From a virus, in IMG/VR virus record IMGVR_UViG_3300006190_000004, positions 1 through 32,463 of that record: 32,463 nucleotides of DNA, one strand, 5' to 3'. Position 1 is the stretch's first letter. Every line of letters starts with the position of its first letter. Of the stretch, positions 1 to 5,674 are shown in pieces. The notes under the pieces were generated by a model that had not been told where the DNA came from, ran no database searches, and saw nothing but the letters and a program-made list of their open reading frames with translations. The translations under genes were made by a program, and so were the position numbers.

Positions 1-1164
1 CACTGCGAGTATTGCTCCCGCTATAGCGACTATTCCTAGTGCTGCCATTCCAATTCCCTTAACTCCTACTCTTTTAGTAACTAATGCTAATATAGAAAAA
101 GGTACTGCGAAAATCAATATTGATAATCCTGCTTTAAGAGCCCAATCTAAATCAGGTGCTCTGAAAGATTTAACTTTTTCTAACAATTGAAATGCGAATG
201 CGATACCTACAACACCTGCCGCCATTATTGGCATTGCAATAGATGCAAATATCATTTCTTTTAAAGATAGTCCTCTGACTGCTCTTGTTATCTTTTTAAA
301 TGAGAATGAAAATATGAATAATAGAATACCTGTTTTTAGGATCCACTTTAATGGTGGTAACGCTGAAAACTTATCAGGCATTAATTTATTAAATACAGTA
401 GCTACTAATGCAATTCCTGCTGCGATAGCAACCATAGCTGCGGTTCCTGCTGCTAGCTTTAGTAAGCCTTTAGCATTCATTGTTATATTAGCCTTCGCTA
501 ATCCTCTAATAATAGCACCGAATGCAAACCCTAATGGGATAAACATGATTCCTATTAGAATAGCACTAGCAGCTTGTGACATCGATATTGGTCGCACTAA
601 GCTTAATAGAAAAGAAGATCCCATAATACCCGCTGCCATTCCAATCATTGCTAATGAAACATTTCCGGCCAGTTTCATAGGATTTCTCATTGTTAATCCT
701 TTTGATTTTCCTATTAATCTTGTTAAAAGTCCTCCACCGTTTAATGATTCCGCTATGTCACTAAATATAGGTGCTATAACTACAAATAATCCACCAATTG
801 CTAATGATGTAATAAGTTGATCATCACTAATAGGCCTAACAAACTGTAATAAACCAGAAGCTGCAACTATAGCTCCCGCCATCGCAACAACTGCGAAAGC
901 ACCTGAGGCAGTTGCAAACATACTTGGCATTTTTAACTTAGTGCTTCCTTCGTTTGAATTGGCATTAGAAGTCGCCTTGATCTGCTCTTTTAATAAACCT
1001 TTAATATCTGTAAGTAATCCTGTATGTATTTTAAGTTCCTTAGAAGTTGTGGTAGACACCTTAACTAAATCAACAGTAAGTACTGAGTTAATTTCGCTAA
1101 TTTGTTTATTTTGTTCTTCTATTAAATTGGCTAACCGTTGTAATGGTGCTAATAGTATTTTCAT
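1..1164 (-). CDS. Tape-measure-like protein, N-terminal part (runs off left edge)
   Basis: The minus-strand frame is open without a stop from ATG at 1164-1162 to base 1, giving 388 codons of a longer protein. The N-terminus (residues 1-65) is helical and coiled-coil-like, as in many tape-measure proteins. It is followed by Ala/Gly/Ile-rich hydrophobic helices in loosely repeating 70-80-residue modules: VRPIS occurs at 109-113 and 190-194, and related turns lie near 262 and 334. A tape-measure protein sets tail length and is threaded inside the tail tube. The main support is position: it directly follows gp18, gp19 and a gp26/gp51-family chaperone-like gene with a frameshift-like extension. 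A terminator (1212-1240) and a late-type promoter (1201-1210) precede it, so it probably starts its own transcription unit. A phage membrane protein is the alternative, because the hydrophobicity is higher than expected for T4 gp29. Confidence 0.6.
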   Translation of the reverse strand, partial: MKILLAPLQRLANLIEEQNKQISEINSVLTVDLVKVSTTTSKELKIHTGLLTDIKGLLKEQIKATSNANSNEGSTKLKMPSMFATASGAFAVVAMAGAIVAASGLLQFVRPISDDQLITSLAIGGLFVVIAPIFSDIAESLNGGGLLTRLIGKSKGLTMRNPMKLAGNVSLAMIGMAAGIMGSSFLLSLVRPISMSQAASAILIGIMFIPLGFAFGAIIRGLAKANITMNAKGLLKLAAGTAAMVAIAAGIALVATVFNKLMPDKFSALPPLKWILKTGILLFIFSFSFKKITRAVRGLSLKEMIFASIAMPIMAAGVVGIAFAFQLLEKVKSFRAPDLDWALKAGLSILIFAVPFSILALVTKRVGVKGIGMAALGIVAIAGAILAV

Positions 1165-1253: not shown

Positions 1254-1502
1254 TTAAAGTTTTGGCATTTTCATGTTTGGCATTTTCATGTCTGGGATTT
1301 TCATACCAGATGGATTTGCCGATTGCTGATCTTGCCCTCCTTGATTTGCTTCGTTTTCTTTTTTCATAAATTCTAGTAAATCTTTAACTAAGTAATGGAA
1401 TTCATAATATTCTAATGCTTCCAATTCGCTAGGTTGGATATGTAGATGTTTATAAATATAAAACTTTGTTTTAAAGAAGTTCTCCAGAGATATCTTGAAC
1501 AA
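1254..1502 (-). CDS. Small tail-assembly chaperone-like ORF, possibly a frameshift extension of the gp26-like gene
   Basis: The frame is open from an ATG at 1571, but that would overlap the upstream gene by about 100 nt. The nearest alternative is a TTG at 1502. The conserved-looking part begins around 1472 (KTKFYIYKHL, then a PSELEALEYYEFHYL segment), an arrangement seen in phage tail-chaperone C-terminal domains. The protein ends in a Gln/Asn-rich stretch and short MKMP-type repeats. The upstream gene stops at 1471-1473 in the context CTT CTT TAA AAC, where a +1 slip of CTT to TTT would enter this frame directly. The product may therefore be an extension of the upstream protein and not a separate one. 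Its position just upstream of the tape-measure-like gene matches the G/GT chaperone arrangement of other phages. Function is inferred from context. Confidence 0.45.
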   Translation of the reverse strand: MFKISLENFFKTKFYIYKHLHIQPSELEALEYYEFHYLVKDLLEFMKKENEANQGGQDQQSANPSGMKIPDMKMPNMKMPKL

Positions 1503-2415
1503 TAAAAAGAGATTTGATGCCGTCGCGAAACCCAATTGGGACGTCCTCCCAGTCATCCCCAATCTGAACACTCATTTCTGGTTTAATACCAACTTTCATT
1601 TGTTCTGATAATTTATAAATTAAACTGTATTTCTTATTAGACCAGCTATTCATTTCCATTTCAAACTTAAAAATATCTTTATCAGTAAATCCTCTCCATT
1701 CAGATACCATGTATGGCATTACTTGAAGAACTGACTGATCTATTTTTAAACCTTTTTCTTGACGATCTTTAATGTAAGCTGTCATTTTTTGCATAACACC
1801 AATAGTAGGAGGTGCCACTTTTAATATTCCAAAAGATTTTGTTTCTATTAAGAAAGTTCTAGCAGTATCATCATAATATTTATCTAGAGTTTCAGGTATT
1901 GCAAAATACTTGAAAGTTTCTTTTTTAATTTCAACAGTTTGTTTTTCTCCGTTTTTATCTGTATGGTCTACACTTAAGTTTGACTCAGGTTCTGGGAACG
2001 TTAAGTCTCTAATAGAAAGAATTAAAAAGAATCTATCTTCTTCTAATAGATCTTTATAAGACATTCTTGTTTTATCACTAGTAACTCTTGTACATGCTTC
2101 TACTATATTATTTAACTTCTCATCAACATCTAAAATATTCTGTTCATCTATTGTTGAAAAATGTCTAATCTCAGCTACTTTTGCTGATCTAATATGTACT
2201 TGTGTTCCTTTGGGGTAAAACATACCCGCAGATGGTAAAGCGTTTACAGCAAGAGAATGATATCCTAATAATGTATCAGCATCCTGTGCTTTTTGTGTTC
2301 CGTACTTTTCCATGTTAACTGACCCTAAATCAGCAGGCTTCGGGTTTTCCTGGTTCTCAACGATGTTTTTGTAAGCATCGTCTAAATTTGCATCGTCTTT
2401 TTTGTTGGTGCTCAT
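1471..2415 (-). CDS. gp26: gp26/gp51-family baseplate hub or tail assembly protein
   Basis: This 314-residue protein has a low-complexity N-terminal tail (about 1-55). A domain then begins around LPSAGMFYPKG and continues through HIRSAKVAEIRHFS, resembling the start of the T4 baseplate hub assembly proteins gp26 and gp51 (IAIRPYTVKEEKLL in T4 gp26). These act during baseplate hub and tape-measure assembly. The neighbours fit: gp18, gp19 and a 71-aa protein lie upstream, and a chaperone-like frame and the tape-measure-like gene lie downstream. The gene starts three bases after the stop of the 71-aa gene. Its end overlaps the next frame at a CTT CTT TAA sequence that could allow a +1 shift. Family membership rests on remembered motif similarity and is not certain. 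It could instead be the G-type tail chaperone of this lineage. Confidence 0.55.
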   Translation of the reverse strand: MSTNKKDDANLDDAYKNIVENQENPKPADLGSVNMEKYGTQKAQDADTLLGYHSLAVNALPSAGMFYPKGTQVHIRSAKVAEIRHFSTIDEQNILDVDEKLNNIVEACTRVTSDKTRMSYKDLLEEDRFFLILSIRDLTFPEPESNLSVDHTDKNGEKQTVEIKKETFKYFAIPETLDKYYDDTARTFLIETKSFGILKVAPPTIGVMQKMTAYIKDRQEKGLKIDQSVLQVMPYMVSEWRGFTDKDIFKFEMEMNSWSNKKYSLIYKLSEQMKVGIKPEMSVQIGDDWEDVPIGFRDGIKSLFIVQDISGELL

Positions 2416-2715: not shown

Positions 2716-3270
2716 TTAAGCTAGAACCTCTTTAAAAGTATCACATCTCCATGTTACTTCAAGTGCTTGTGCTTCTGTAGTTTCGTAATTTAATTCAGTA
2801 GTGAAAGGTAATCCTGAAGTAATGAAACAGTCTTCTAAAGTTACTGTTCTATATATGTCTCCAGCTCTATTGAATTGAACTACAACGATAGTACCTACAT
2901 AATCTTTTTTAAGACCCATTTGGCCAGTCTGAGGATCGTATTGGTTATTATACCATTGTCTCATTGATTTATAAAGATATGCTTGATTAGCATCGTTTAA
3001 GTTTAATGTAAAGTTTATTCCAACGTCTACAGTTGTTTGATCAGGCATTCCTGCGAACGAACGTGTTGAGAATTTATATTTTTGCTCAACAGCTGCAACT
3101 TCTTTGTATAATTCTAAACCTGTTATTGAGGTAACATGTTGAATCATCAGTGGAGCATCTGCTACGCCAGCTGGAGGTAAAACTGTTACTTCAAATAAGT
3201 TCGCTTGAACTGGTTCGAATTGTCTACCGCTTCTGCTTGTTTGATCTTGTGAATAGTGTGGTAAAGCCAT
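2716..3270 (-). CDS. gp19: Tail tube protein (gp19-like)
   Basis: This 184-residue protein (T4 gp19 is 163) immediately follows the tail sheath gene. It has the T4-type tube protein layout: an N-terminal loop, an early FEVTVLPPAG strand, a GLELYKEVAAVEQKYKF region, a central FTLNLNDANQAYLYKSMRQW segment, and a C-terminal strand ending TWRCDTF. Hexamers of this protein stack to form the inner tail tube through which DNA passes. A late-type promoter motif lies 23 nt upstream and a strong terminator lies 13 nt downstream, as expected for an abundant structural protein. The order terminase-sheath-tube is that of T4. Identification rests on these segments and position. Confidence 0.9.
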   Translation of the reverse strand: MALPHYSQDQTSRSGRQFEPVQANLFEVTVLPPAGVADAPLMIQHVTSITGLELYKEVAAVEQKYKFSTRSFAGMPDQTTVDVGINFTLNLNDANQAYLYKSMRQWYNNQYDPQTGQMGLKKDYVGTIVVVQFNRAGDIYRTVTLEDCFITSGLPFTTELNYETTEAQALEVTWRCDTFKEVLA

Positions 3271-3304: not shown

Positions 3305-5674
3305 TTAACTAAAGTTCCCTGTTGAAATTTCACCAGTATTTAAAACTGTAGTTCTGTGTACGACTATTTCTAATCCTTTAACAGGTTCAACATAAGTATC
3401 TATAATACCAAAGTTATTATCAATTACGTCATCAGTGTTGTTTGTTTGATCCATGATGTTTTTGAATTCGAAAACTCCACCGTCTGCTTTTACTGATTCC
3501 ATAAACGAATCTGCTAAAGTTTTGATTTCTAATCTAGTCTGAACATTGTTGAATTCAAATACATATCCTTTAAGAATATTAGCAATACCTTCTTGTATGA
3601 AAATTAAAGCTTCTCTAACATGTGCTGAAGAAAGCGATGATTTAACAGATTGTTGTGCCGTTTTGTTTCCTAAAATAGTAAGACCTACTCCTCTTTGAAA
3701 TACAATTGGATTGATTCCGAAAGGCTCTAATACATCTCTATCATTTTTATCAAAAGCATATTCTACTCCTTTTAATCCTGATCCTCCTACAACTCCTCTT
3801 CTTGGACCTGCAACGATCGACCATGGTTGAGCGCTTGTATATTTATCTAAAAAGTTATTTGATACATTAGCTGCTGGTGGAACTATTAAGTCTTTACCTC
3901 CGTCTGATACTAATAAACCAGGTCCGTAGTAGAATGCATAATTTGCTCCTTCTAAAATACTTGGTAAAGAATATGTCTTAGTTGGATTTTTATCTAAATT
4001 TCCTCCTTGTGCGATATACTCTACTTTAAACTCTCCGTTTGCGTTTGTAAATGAAGGGTTTGTTGATTTTTTAAAATCTGCAACAGTTGGTGCATTTAAG
4101 ATAGCAGAAGCGTTTTGTCTTGCTTGCGCTAAATCTGATAACTGGTGCTTATTTTGTAGCTCTCCATCGTTTGATGTAAATGTATCTACAACATATCTAA
4201 AGTCAATTAAGTCTTTATCAATTAATCCAGCGTATAATCCTGTTCCTCCTTTTAATGCGTCTAGAGCAGAACTTATTGTCTGATCTTCTAAAGTAGCTCC
4301 TGGTAATGCAAATGGTGCATAGTGCGATGTAGCTTCTTCCCATGATTTAAAGAATTTATCTGAGAATGTTAATTCTACTGCAACATCACAATATACGTTG
4401 TATACTGATCCTGCTTTAGATACTCTCTTTACTTTTGCTAATCTATCAGTAACTGCTGATTTAACATAGTCTCCTGCTGATATAGCGAAAGTTGCTGGTG
4501 TATTTGCAGCTGTTGCGAAATCAACTGAAAATTGAGAACCATTACTTGCGTATACTCCTGTTGTTTTACCTTCTTCAGTTACTGCATCTCCGTTACCGTC
4601 TAATACTGGATCTCCGTTACCATCTACTGTTGGTACTTGGTGAGATACTCCTTCTAAAGTTTCTGCAACTTCTCTATCACCTGCATTTATTTTATAAGAT
4701 AGTAACTGAGTGTTTGGTGTAGAAGCTTTATGTCCTACTAAATCTATTTCAGTTCCATTTTCGTTGATTACTGCGTCTTCATCAATTGCACAGAATAAAC
4801 CTGTCTTTCTTGCTTCAGAGTTTACCATTGTTTCAACATATAGGTTTCTTCCTTCTAAATCTTTAAATCCTGGGATTAAAGATCCTGTGTATTGTGCTTC
4901 TAAAGTAACTTGTCTTAAGTTAGCAAATTCTGCTAATTTAGATTTGTCTAATCCGTCTGCGTTAAAGTAAGCTCCATATACTGGATCAGCTGATACATCA
5001 GAGAAGTTTCCTTTAAATACGAAAACATCTACCATGAAATCTGATATGTAATCGAAATCATTCATGAATTCAGGTACATTACCTTCACCATACCAATCTC
5101 TTGCATTAATATCAAAAGCTTTTACATCTGCTGCTTTTCTAATAAAAACTGTTACAGCTTGTTGCTTGATATTTACAAAGTTAATTGCGTTTGATTTAGC
5201 TACTCCTTCGTTTGCTAAGTCAGCAAGTACTTTTGAATCAGAAGGTACCATAAACTTATCATTATCAAAAAAGTTTGTATATTCTGAAACTCCTGAATTT
5301 GATAAAGGATTTAACGGTGCTGATTCTGTTCCTACCTGGTTTCCGTTAGAAACTGGTTTTGCGTAAGCTGATTTAGATGCTGATGTAAACTTATAAAGGT
5401 TTAACGCTAATATAGGTCCTCTTGAAAGAGCTTCTAATGCAGATCTGTGGAAAAACATTCCTTTCTTTTCTAGTTTCTTATCAATTGTTCCGAATACGTT
5501 AGTAAAATCTTCAACACTTGAAATTAAAACTGGTGAATTGTAAGGTCCTTTTCTTGAGTGACCTGTAATTAATCTTAATGTTTCAACGTTTATATTTGCA
5601 GTCTGTGACTTGTCAAATTCTAAACGATATACTCCACTCGATTTAAATTGTAATAAATTTGGACTTAATGCCAT
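3305..5674 (-). CDS. gp18: Contractile tail sheath protein (gp18-like)
   Basis: At 789 residues this is longer than T4 gp18 (659). The N-terminus (MALSPNLLQFKSSGVYRLEF) and the C-terminal half (EPFGINPIVFQRGVGLTILG, then AHVREALIFIQEGI and GDFS-like end strands) carry typical sheath features. The conserved C-terminal part interlocks subunits along the tube, while variable insertions lie on the outer surface. Residues about 345-430 contain an extra strand-rich region with two GNGD repeats (VDGNGDPVLDGNGDA), resembling short acidic calcium-type loops. This part probably decorates the sheath exterior. The gene has a GATATATAA motif 31 nt upstream of its ATG and is followed 34 bases later by gp19. 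Confidence 0.92.
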   Translation of the reverse strand: MALSPNLLQFKSSGVYRLEFDKSQTANINVETLRLITGHSRKGPYNSPVLISSVEDFTNVFGTIDKKLEKKGMFFHRSALEALSRGPILALNLYKFTSASKSAYAKPVSNGNQVGTESAPLNPLSNSGVSEYTNFFDNDKFMVPSDSKVLADLANEGVAKSNAINFVNIKQQAVTVFIRKAADVKAFDINARDWYGEGNVPEFMNDFDYISDFMVDVFVFKGNFSDVSADPVYGAYFNADGLDKSKLAEFANLRQVTLEAQYTGSLIPGFKDLEGRNLYVETMVNSEARKTGLFCAIDEDAVINENGTEIDLVGHKASTPNTQLLSYKINAGDREVAETLEGVSHQVPTVDGNGDPVLDGNGDAVTEEGKTTGVYASNGSQFSVDFATAANTPATFAISAGDYVKSAVTDRLAKVKRVSKAGSVYNVYCDVAVELTFSDKFFKSWEEATSHYAPFALPGATLEDQTISSALDALKGGTGLYAGLIDKDLIDFRYVVDTFTSNDGELQNKHQLSDLAQARQNASAILNAPTVADFKKSTNPSFTNANGEFKVEYIAQGGNLDKNPTKTYSLPSILEGANYAFYYGPGLLVSDGGKDLIVPPAANVSNNFLDKYTSAQPWSIVAGPRRGVVGGSGLKGVEYAFDKNDRDVLEPFGINPIVFQRGVGLTILGNKTAQQSVKSSLSSAHVREALIFIQEGIANILKGYVFEFNNVQTRLEIKTLADSFMESVKADGGVFEFKNIMDQTNNTDDVIDNNFGIIDTYVEPVKGLEIVVHRTTVLNTGEISTGNFS

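Follow-up and report, generated by a model that had tools for sequence, protein, structure and literature searches.

A likely programmed +1 frameshift at TTT_C in the gp26/gp51-type tail assembly chaperone gene of a T4-related phage

Introduction

Phage lambda makes its tail assembly chaperone (TAC) from one gene near the tape-measure gene, as a short form, G, and a C-terminally extended form, GT, the latter by a -1 frameshift (PMC5009743). The same review describes G-T frameshifting as widely conserved, with T4 as the exception, and states that the tail chaperone of the haloarchaeal myovirus HSTV-2 very likely uses +1 frameshifting (PMC5009743). The T4 proteins gp26 and gp51 are described as hub assembly chaperones (PMC3004832), and some T4-like phages are reported to carry both short and longer, fused copies of the TAC gene, poly-T -1 signals being known in such genes (PMC10885494, PMC12846349). 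T4 itself encodes gp26 and gp51 by two separate genes; in cyanophages the homologous gp26-gp51 pair has a poly-T -1 site. Vladimirov, Gautam and Davidson (2022) are reportedly, in the words of papers that cite them, the source for the T4-like TAC copies and their poly-T -1 signals. Within the accessible parts of the literature on gp26/gp51, T4-like TACs and huge or Bacteroidetes phages, a body of text outside which Vladimirov et al. 2022 falls, we found no report of +1 TAC frameshifting in the phages considered here.

In bacteria, the prfB gene for RF2 contains a +1 site, CUU UGA. To our knowledge, the programmed +1 sites known from bacteria mostly involve a stop codon or a CC-rich slip. A different type is found in PA-X of influenza A virus, where the P-site tRNA slips on UUU_C while the rare codon CGU occupies the A site, within UCC_UUU_CGU (PMC3498833).

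The locus studied here lies in a 32,463-nucleotide stretch of viral DNA (IMG/VR record IMGVR_UViG_3300006190_000004, positions 1 to 32,463; hereafter the window). Like lambda G/GT, it would yield a short and a C-terminally extended form from one gene, here close to a tape-measure candidate; the shift of the window phage would, however, be +1, at UUU_C and about 55 nt before the stop. With PA-X it shares a P-site UUU that can re-pair with UUC, a rare A-site codon and the +1 direction, and slippage on UUU_C of the PA-X type fits the sequences. PA-X differs in belonging to a eukaryotic virus and an unrelated protein, and its E-site UCC is not found here: the window has GGG (GGG TTT CGC), its clade has varied codons, and a second clade has CCC in the A site. 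HSTV-2, an archaeal virus, is likened to this locus by its described +1 direction alone. The prfB site shares the +1 direction, and CTT TAA is present in the window, but conservation here centres on another site, one that requires no stop codon.

Results

Arrangement of the locus

The genes run in the order sheath, tube, a 71-aa ORF, the gp26-like gene, ORF2 and a long hydrophobic ORF. The features referred to below are as follows.

3305..5674, minus strand: tail sheath protein, upstream neighbour (phrog_34521, E 9.8e-126)
2716..3270, minus strand: tail tube protein, upstream neighbour (phrog_4542, E 1.1e-7)
1471..2415, minus strand: gp26-like tail assembly chaperone, short form; zero frame, 314 aa, stop TAA 1473-1471
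1525..1530, minus strand: proposed +1 shift site TTT_CGC; UUU 1530-1528 (P site), rare CGC 1527-1525 (A site)
1254..1526, minus strand: +1-frame extension; 90 codons from GCG 1526-1524 to stop TAA 1256-1254; putative long form 386 aa
1474..1526, minus strand: dual-coded overlap; zero frame for the short form, +1 frame for the proposed long form, zero-frame third positions suppressed
1471..1479, minus strand: CTT CTT TAA, the shift site proposed in an earlier note; end of the short form, kept only in the window's clade
1..1164, minus strand: tape-measure candidate, exceeding the window edge; hydrophobic segments, identity suggested by position

The short form matches phrog_36717 (E 1.1e-28), and its gene sits between the tail tube gene and the tape-measure candidate, the usual place of a tail assembly chaperone. 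The earlier note had also placed it before a tape-measure candidate, in agreement with this order; the candidate itself gave no significant family match. The note had further read the gene as ending in CTT CTT TAA, with the next frame exactly +1 and open to 1254. Both points held in the window, the open +1 frame there extending from 1571 to 1254.

The extension lies in the +1 frame in all 191 sequences

We collected relatives from IMG/VR, among them the best 80 of 152 and the best 80 of 347, together with huge phages and named phages: Sphingomonas phage PAU, Chryseobacterium phage MA9V-1, Flavobacterium phage MaF61, Tenacibaculum phages pT24 and PTm1 and the Prevotella Lak phages. Of 31 phage records that matched, 15 were used, the other 16 being RefSeq or duplicate copies and Lak genomes with equal match scores. 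Further searches with the MA9V gene gave no additional relatives, and those with PTm1 and PAU returned only the same phages. The resulting 191 sequences (190 loci plus the window) contain 59 duplicate junctions, leaving 132 unique ones; one locus, L013, leaves its contig before the zero-frame stop and is excluded from the count, and one of the unique junctions, L081, reaches its contig end 25 nt past the stop. For the per-site statistics, the window's clade (clade A) contributed 65 unique genes and a second clade (clade B) 54.

In every sequence with a readable zero-frame stop, the frame that stays open furthest past the stop of the gp26-like gene is +1 (191/191; 132/132 unique). Together with the family match of ORF2 given below, this makes the overlap more than a chance open frame. 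The Lak phages follow the same rule, their +1 frame continuing through ORF2; in Lak-B5 (L018) it does so only if a TAG at +55 is read as Gln. TAG is reassigned in Lak phages. As the earlier note had remarked, this geometry departs from the usual -1 mechanism: a -1 shift with an X_XXY_YYZ heptamer was not found, the extension being +1 in all 191 sequences.

In PAU, MA9V-1, MaF61, pT24 and PTm1 (L017, L019-L022), the gene annotated after the gp26-like gene has a variable start, from -23 to +94 relative to the stop, and omits part of the +1-coded stretch.

A conserved TTT_C, mostly followed by rare codons in the two sampled clades

Upstream of the stop lies a conserved codon pair, TTT CGC in the window (in frame at 1530-1525), 57 nt before the site proposed earlier. 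An in-frame TTT_C starting between -78 and -33 of the stop is present in 131 of the 132 unique junctions, compared with 201 of 1,584 upstream 16-codon stretches of the same genes, both counts being of non-independent events. Clade A has TTT in 65/65 genes, followed in 62 of these by CGC or CGT (TTTCGC 31, TTTCGT 31, TTTCCT 2, TTTCAA 1), while Arg elsewhere in the same genes is written AGR in 674 of 785 cases. Clade B has TTTCCC in 54/54, with CCC making up 3 of 533 Pro codons elsewhere. The choice of TTT is also strict: Phe codons outside the site divide into 641 TTT and 200 TTC in clade A and 709 and 452 in clade B, yet the Phe column at the site shows 0 codon changes in either clade. The remaining conserved Phe columns that fall outside the overlap show 7-17 changes in clade A (8 columns) and 3-17 in clade B (16 columns). 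None of the 641 and 709 TTT codons elsewhere in the clade A and B genes is followed by CGY, and none by CCC. Across the 9,789 codons of 28 window ORFs, in-frame TTTCGC, TTTCGT or TTTCCC occurs once, at 1530; CGC accounts for 4 of their 332 Arg codons.

The site is also traceable over larger distances. In an alignment of 15 diverged representatives (alignment A1), TTT_C falls at the aligned Phe in 12, is displaced in 2 (PTm1, at -75, and MA9V-1, at -36) and is missing in 1 (L026), which reads TAC CCC ATC there. The Lak phages have TTT at -57. L015, PTm1 and the Lak phages carry CAA in the A site, and the rare-codon feature does not extend to these lineages. Between MA9V-1 (L019) and MA9V-2 (L286) there are 74 differences in the 915 nt of the gene and none in its last 120 nt; judged from this comparison, dual coding may extend further upstream in that lineage.

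We saw no downstream stimulatory RNA structure in the 13 of 65 clade A and 11 of 54 clade B genes that were folded, mean z-scores being +0.8 and -0.1 (A) and +0.1 and -0.6 (B). Upstream of the site the mean z was -0.3 in clade A and -1.7 in clade B.

Dual coding begins at TTT_C

Parsimony changes per site were mapped on gene trees of clade A (65 genes) and clade B (54 genes). Downstream of TTT (-57 in A, -63 in B), zero-frame third positions are nearly frozen, and some first positions, which are third positions in the +1 frame, still vary, as in GAT [A/T/C]TC [G/T/A]CT, where I-S is kept in +1. The exceptions in clade A, third positions -52, -46 and -40 with 9, 17 and 7 changes, correspond to A/V, E/A/G and N/S in the +1 reading. 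The stretch with the least third-position change in the whole gene is a window of 19 codons in clade A and 21 codons in clade B that starts exactly at TTT_C; its changes per codon are 2.47 against a median of 14.05 in clade A, and 0.71 against 8.95 in clade B. Upstream, +1-frame stops come no closer than -62 (clade A) and -68 (clade B), which puts the nearest ones a single +1 codon ahead of UUC, and between these points and the zero-frame stop neither clade contains a +1-frame stop. By this pattern of changes, constrained +1 coding begins about 55 nt upstream of TAA, a feature that the earlier note had missed.

Such an onset well before the stop bears directly on where the ribosome would change frame. 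The earlier note had proposed a prfB-like slip from CTT to TTT over the TAA stop, adding 71 residues; we count 72 for a shift at that point. CTT TAA is indeed present in 65/65 clade A genes (CTT CTT TAA in 64/65), and the zero-frame E-L-L that it helps to encode is conserved. Outside clade A, however, the motif is not kept: clade B genes end in GAA TAA (53/54) or AAA TAA (1/54), and CTT TAA is lacking in clade B, PAU, pT24, PTm1, MA9V-1, MaF61 and the Lak phages. Fusion profiles built from 22 of the 65 clade A genes and compared with the cyanophage chaperone separate the two sites, with a score of 36.5 (E 5e-5) for fusion at the stop, 60.8 (E 4e-9) for fusion at TTT_C and 63.4 for fusion at -36. 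Fusion at the stop scores lower because the +1-encoded residues ISLENFF are lost; these match LENYF of the cyanophage protein, in which the corresponding residues follow the zero-frame stop and are free of dual coding. A slip at the stop would also leave the +1 constraint upstream of it unexplained. Since the +1 reading is conserved upstream of TAA and fusion at the stop scores worse, the prfB analogy fails for the main site; CTT|TAA is very probably not the site, and a prfB-like slip as the source of the long form is extremely unlikely.

GAA CTT CTT TAA itself (window 1471-1482) is identical in 64 of 65 clade A genes, with 0, 1 and 0 first-position changes, and GAA CTT CTT is fixed beyond what +1 coding alone needs. 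Because the motif is so unusually fixed, a minor second slip at CTT TAA is possible in clade A.

Other shift points and internal starts

A +1 shift in the same region could also take place at another site, for example nTT TTC at -36 or, in clade B, CCC_N. The homology scores do not separate TTT_C from -36 (60.8 and 63.4), and L026 has CCC_A and no TTT_C. At -36, though, three of the 65 clade A genes read TTA and one reads CTA, codons at which +1 re-pairing fails, and these 4/65 genes disfavour that site; CCC follows TTT in 0 clade A genes. Both the suppression of third positions and the codon bias start at TTT_C, and we regard a shift elsewhere in the region as very unlikely. A -2 shift offered no consistent re-pairing on inspection.

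Alternatively, ORF2 might be a separate small protein whose translation starts inside the gp26-like gene. The earlier note had found no good ATG for the second frame without a long overlap, a fair description of the window, where the start-like codons in +1 are GTG 1571, TTG 1562, ATG 1556, TTG 1535 and TTG 1502 (L001 is identical to the window at these codons). Candidates are TTG 1502 in the window, ATG at -29 or -26 in clade B, and a near-cognate AT[A/T/C] at -20. In clade A, 56 of 65 genes carry TTG at -29, and all 65 have AT[A/C/T] as the +1 codon at -20; clade B has ATG at -26 in 52/54 and at -29 in 38/54, one or both in 54/54. Taken over the whole interval from the upstream +1 stop to the helix, ATG, GTG or TTG is present in 63 of the 65 genes of clade A and in all 54 of clade B. 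The annotation of T4 gene 26 includes an internal 26' product, and public records list ORF2 as a separate small gene.

Against initiation as the general route, 9 of the 65 clade A genes carry TTA in place of TTG at -29 (5 changes). L015 and L038 lack ATG, GTG and TTG throughout the interval from the upstream +1 stop to the conserved helix, as does L025 across positions -65 to +40. Internal initiation would also leave unexplained the +1 constraint and the invariant TTT with its rare codons 25-35 nt further upstream, as well as the homology to fused chaperones. As the sole origin of the ORF2 product it is improbable. Since 63 genes of clade A and all 54 of clade B hold start-like codons, a separate ORF2 product may be made as well, and internal starts are possible mainly in clade B.

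The predicted fusion is a gp26/gp51-type chaperone

The earlier note had proposed that a +1 shift joins the gp26-like protein to a chaperone-like C-terminus, and profile comparisons support such a fusion. ORF2 matches phrog_634, 'baseplate hub assembly catalyst' (E 7e-4); a Pfam search of ORF2 gave no match. With hhalign, a set of 16 selected bacteroidal-type fusions, from which Lak and L026 were omitted and in which PTm1 and MA9V-1 were fused at their displaced TTT_C, aligned with 12 cyanophage-type -1 fusions at 98.4% (E 4.8e-15) over 273 columns, co-linear across both junctions. In single hhalign comparisons, the cyanophage fusion matched T4 gp26 (E 2.8e-15) and T4 gp51 (E 1.4e-8), and T4 gp51 matched T4 gp26 with E 3e-4 and a probability of 40%. 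The bacteroidal-type fusion compared directly with T4 gp51 was not significant (E 0.018, 20 columns).

The cyanophage-type loci are built differently at the junction. All 68 unique loci from the best 80 of 599 have T_TTT_TTC in register just before the stop, with ORF2 in -1; seven named T4-like phages have T_TTT_TTC in six cases and T_TTT_TTT in one. In cyanophage, pelagiphage and Vibrio T4-like gp26 genes (L202-L281, L029, L031-L036), T_TTT_TTC or T_TTT_TTT precedes the stop in register and gp51 follows in -1. The records of the named T4-like phages annotate gp51 as a separate gene or lack it (Syn2, L036).

An AlphaFold2 model of the 386-aa product (pLDDT 73, pTM 0.68) comprises a folded domain at about residues 50-293, a low-confidence stretch at 296-311 around the junction and helices at 310-362, so that in the model the junction sits in a low-confidence linker between the folded and the helical domains. 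Searches of BFVD with this model gave a T4-like baseplate hub assembly protein (E 5.2e-6, TM 0.43/0.57), a T4 gp51-like protein of CP21 (E 2.4e-3) and Gp93 of an uncultured marine phage. A PDB fold search with the model returned 0 matches at E <= 0.001, and the best VIA-align Z was 2.7. On sequence and predicted fold together, we assign the product to the T4 gp26/gp51-type tail assembly chaperones; the gene is the counterpart of lambda G/GT and of T4 gp26/gp51.

Discussion

The arrangement is most likely explained by a TAC of a T4-related contractile phage that is made in a short and a long form through a +1 slip at TTT_C. Most ribosomes would stay in the zero frame and produce the 314-aa short form. 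A small fraction, the efficiency presumably being low, would pause at the rare A-site codon while tRNA-Phe slips from UUU to UUC, and would then continue in +1 (F296-ATASNLFLLFKISLENFFKTKF...) to give a long form of 386 aa that carries an additional helical domain. On the model of G and GT, the short form may coat the tape measure, and the added domain may recruit tube subunits. What the comparison shows directly is the order of frames and how widely it is kept, the fixed codons at TTT_C, the point at which dual coding starts and the homology to the cyanophage -1 fusion; slippage itself, its efficiency, any contribution of the rare codon and a role in tail assembly are inferred.

Among T4-related phages, one homologous chaperone gene has probably come to its short and long forms along three routes, namely a -1 slip, two separate genes and a +1 slip on UUU_C next to a rare codon in the A site. 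It seems likely that the -1 route, on U_UUU_UUC, belongs to cyanophages and Vibrio phages, the two-gene route to T4, and the +1 route to huge phages and phages with mostly Bacteroidota among their named hosts, the Lak phages included. If this is true, UUU_CGY and UUU_CCC would represent a PA-X-type signal for programmed +1 shifts that is widespread in bacteria and independent of a stop codon; UUU_C followed by a rare sense codon, retained over very divergent phages, would be a simple +1 signal for bacteria. The same reading would account for the C-terminal domain missing from the annotated genomes of PAU, PTm1, pT24, MA9V-1 and MaF61, and it would show that homologous genes can differ in the direction of frameshifting while the fused product is kept.

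Two further observations concern individual loci. In L025 (LR756501.1), roughly 57 nt of additional sequence, located at about -45 to +12 relative to the stop of the gp26-like gene, separate the first F-S motif from the FSVF motif; the extra stretch leaves the +1 frame open and resembles a partial duplication. In the window, an inverted repeat, CGGGAACAATTCCCG, which the scan reported for the plus strand only, lies at 1220-1234, between ORF2 and the tape-measure candidate; on the minus strand it is followed by TTATTTTTG, and the whole is terminator-like.
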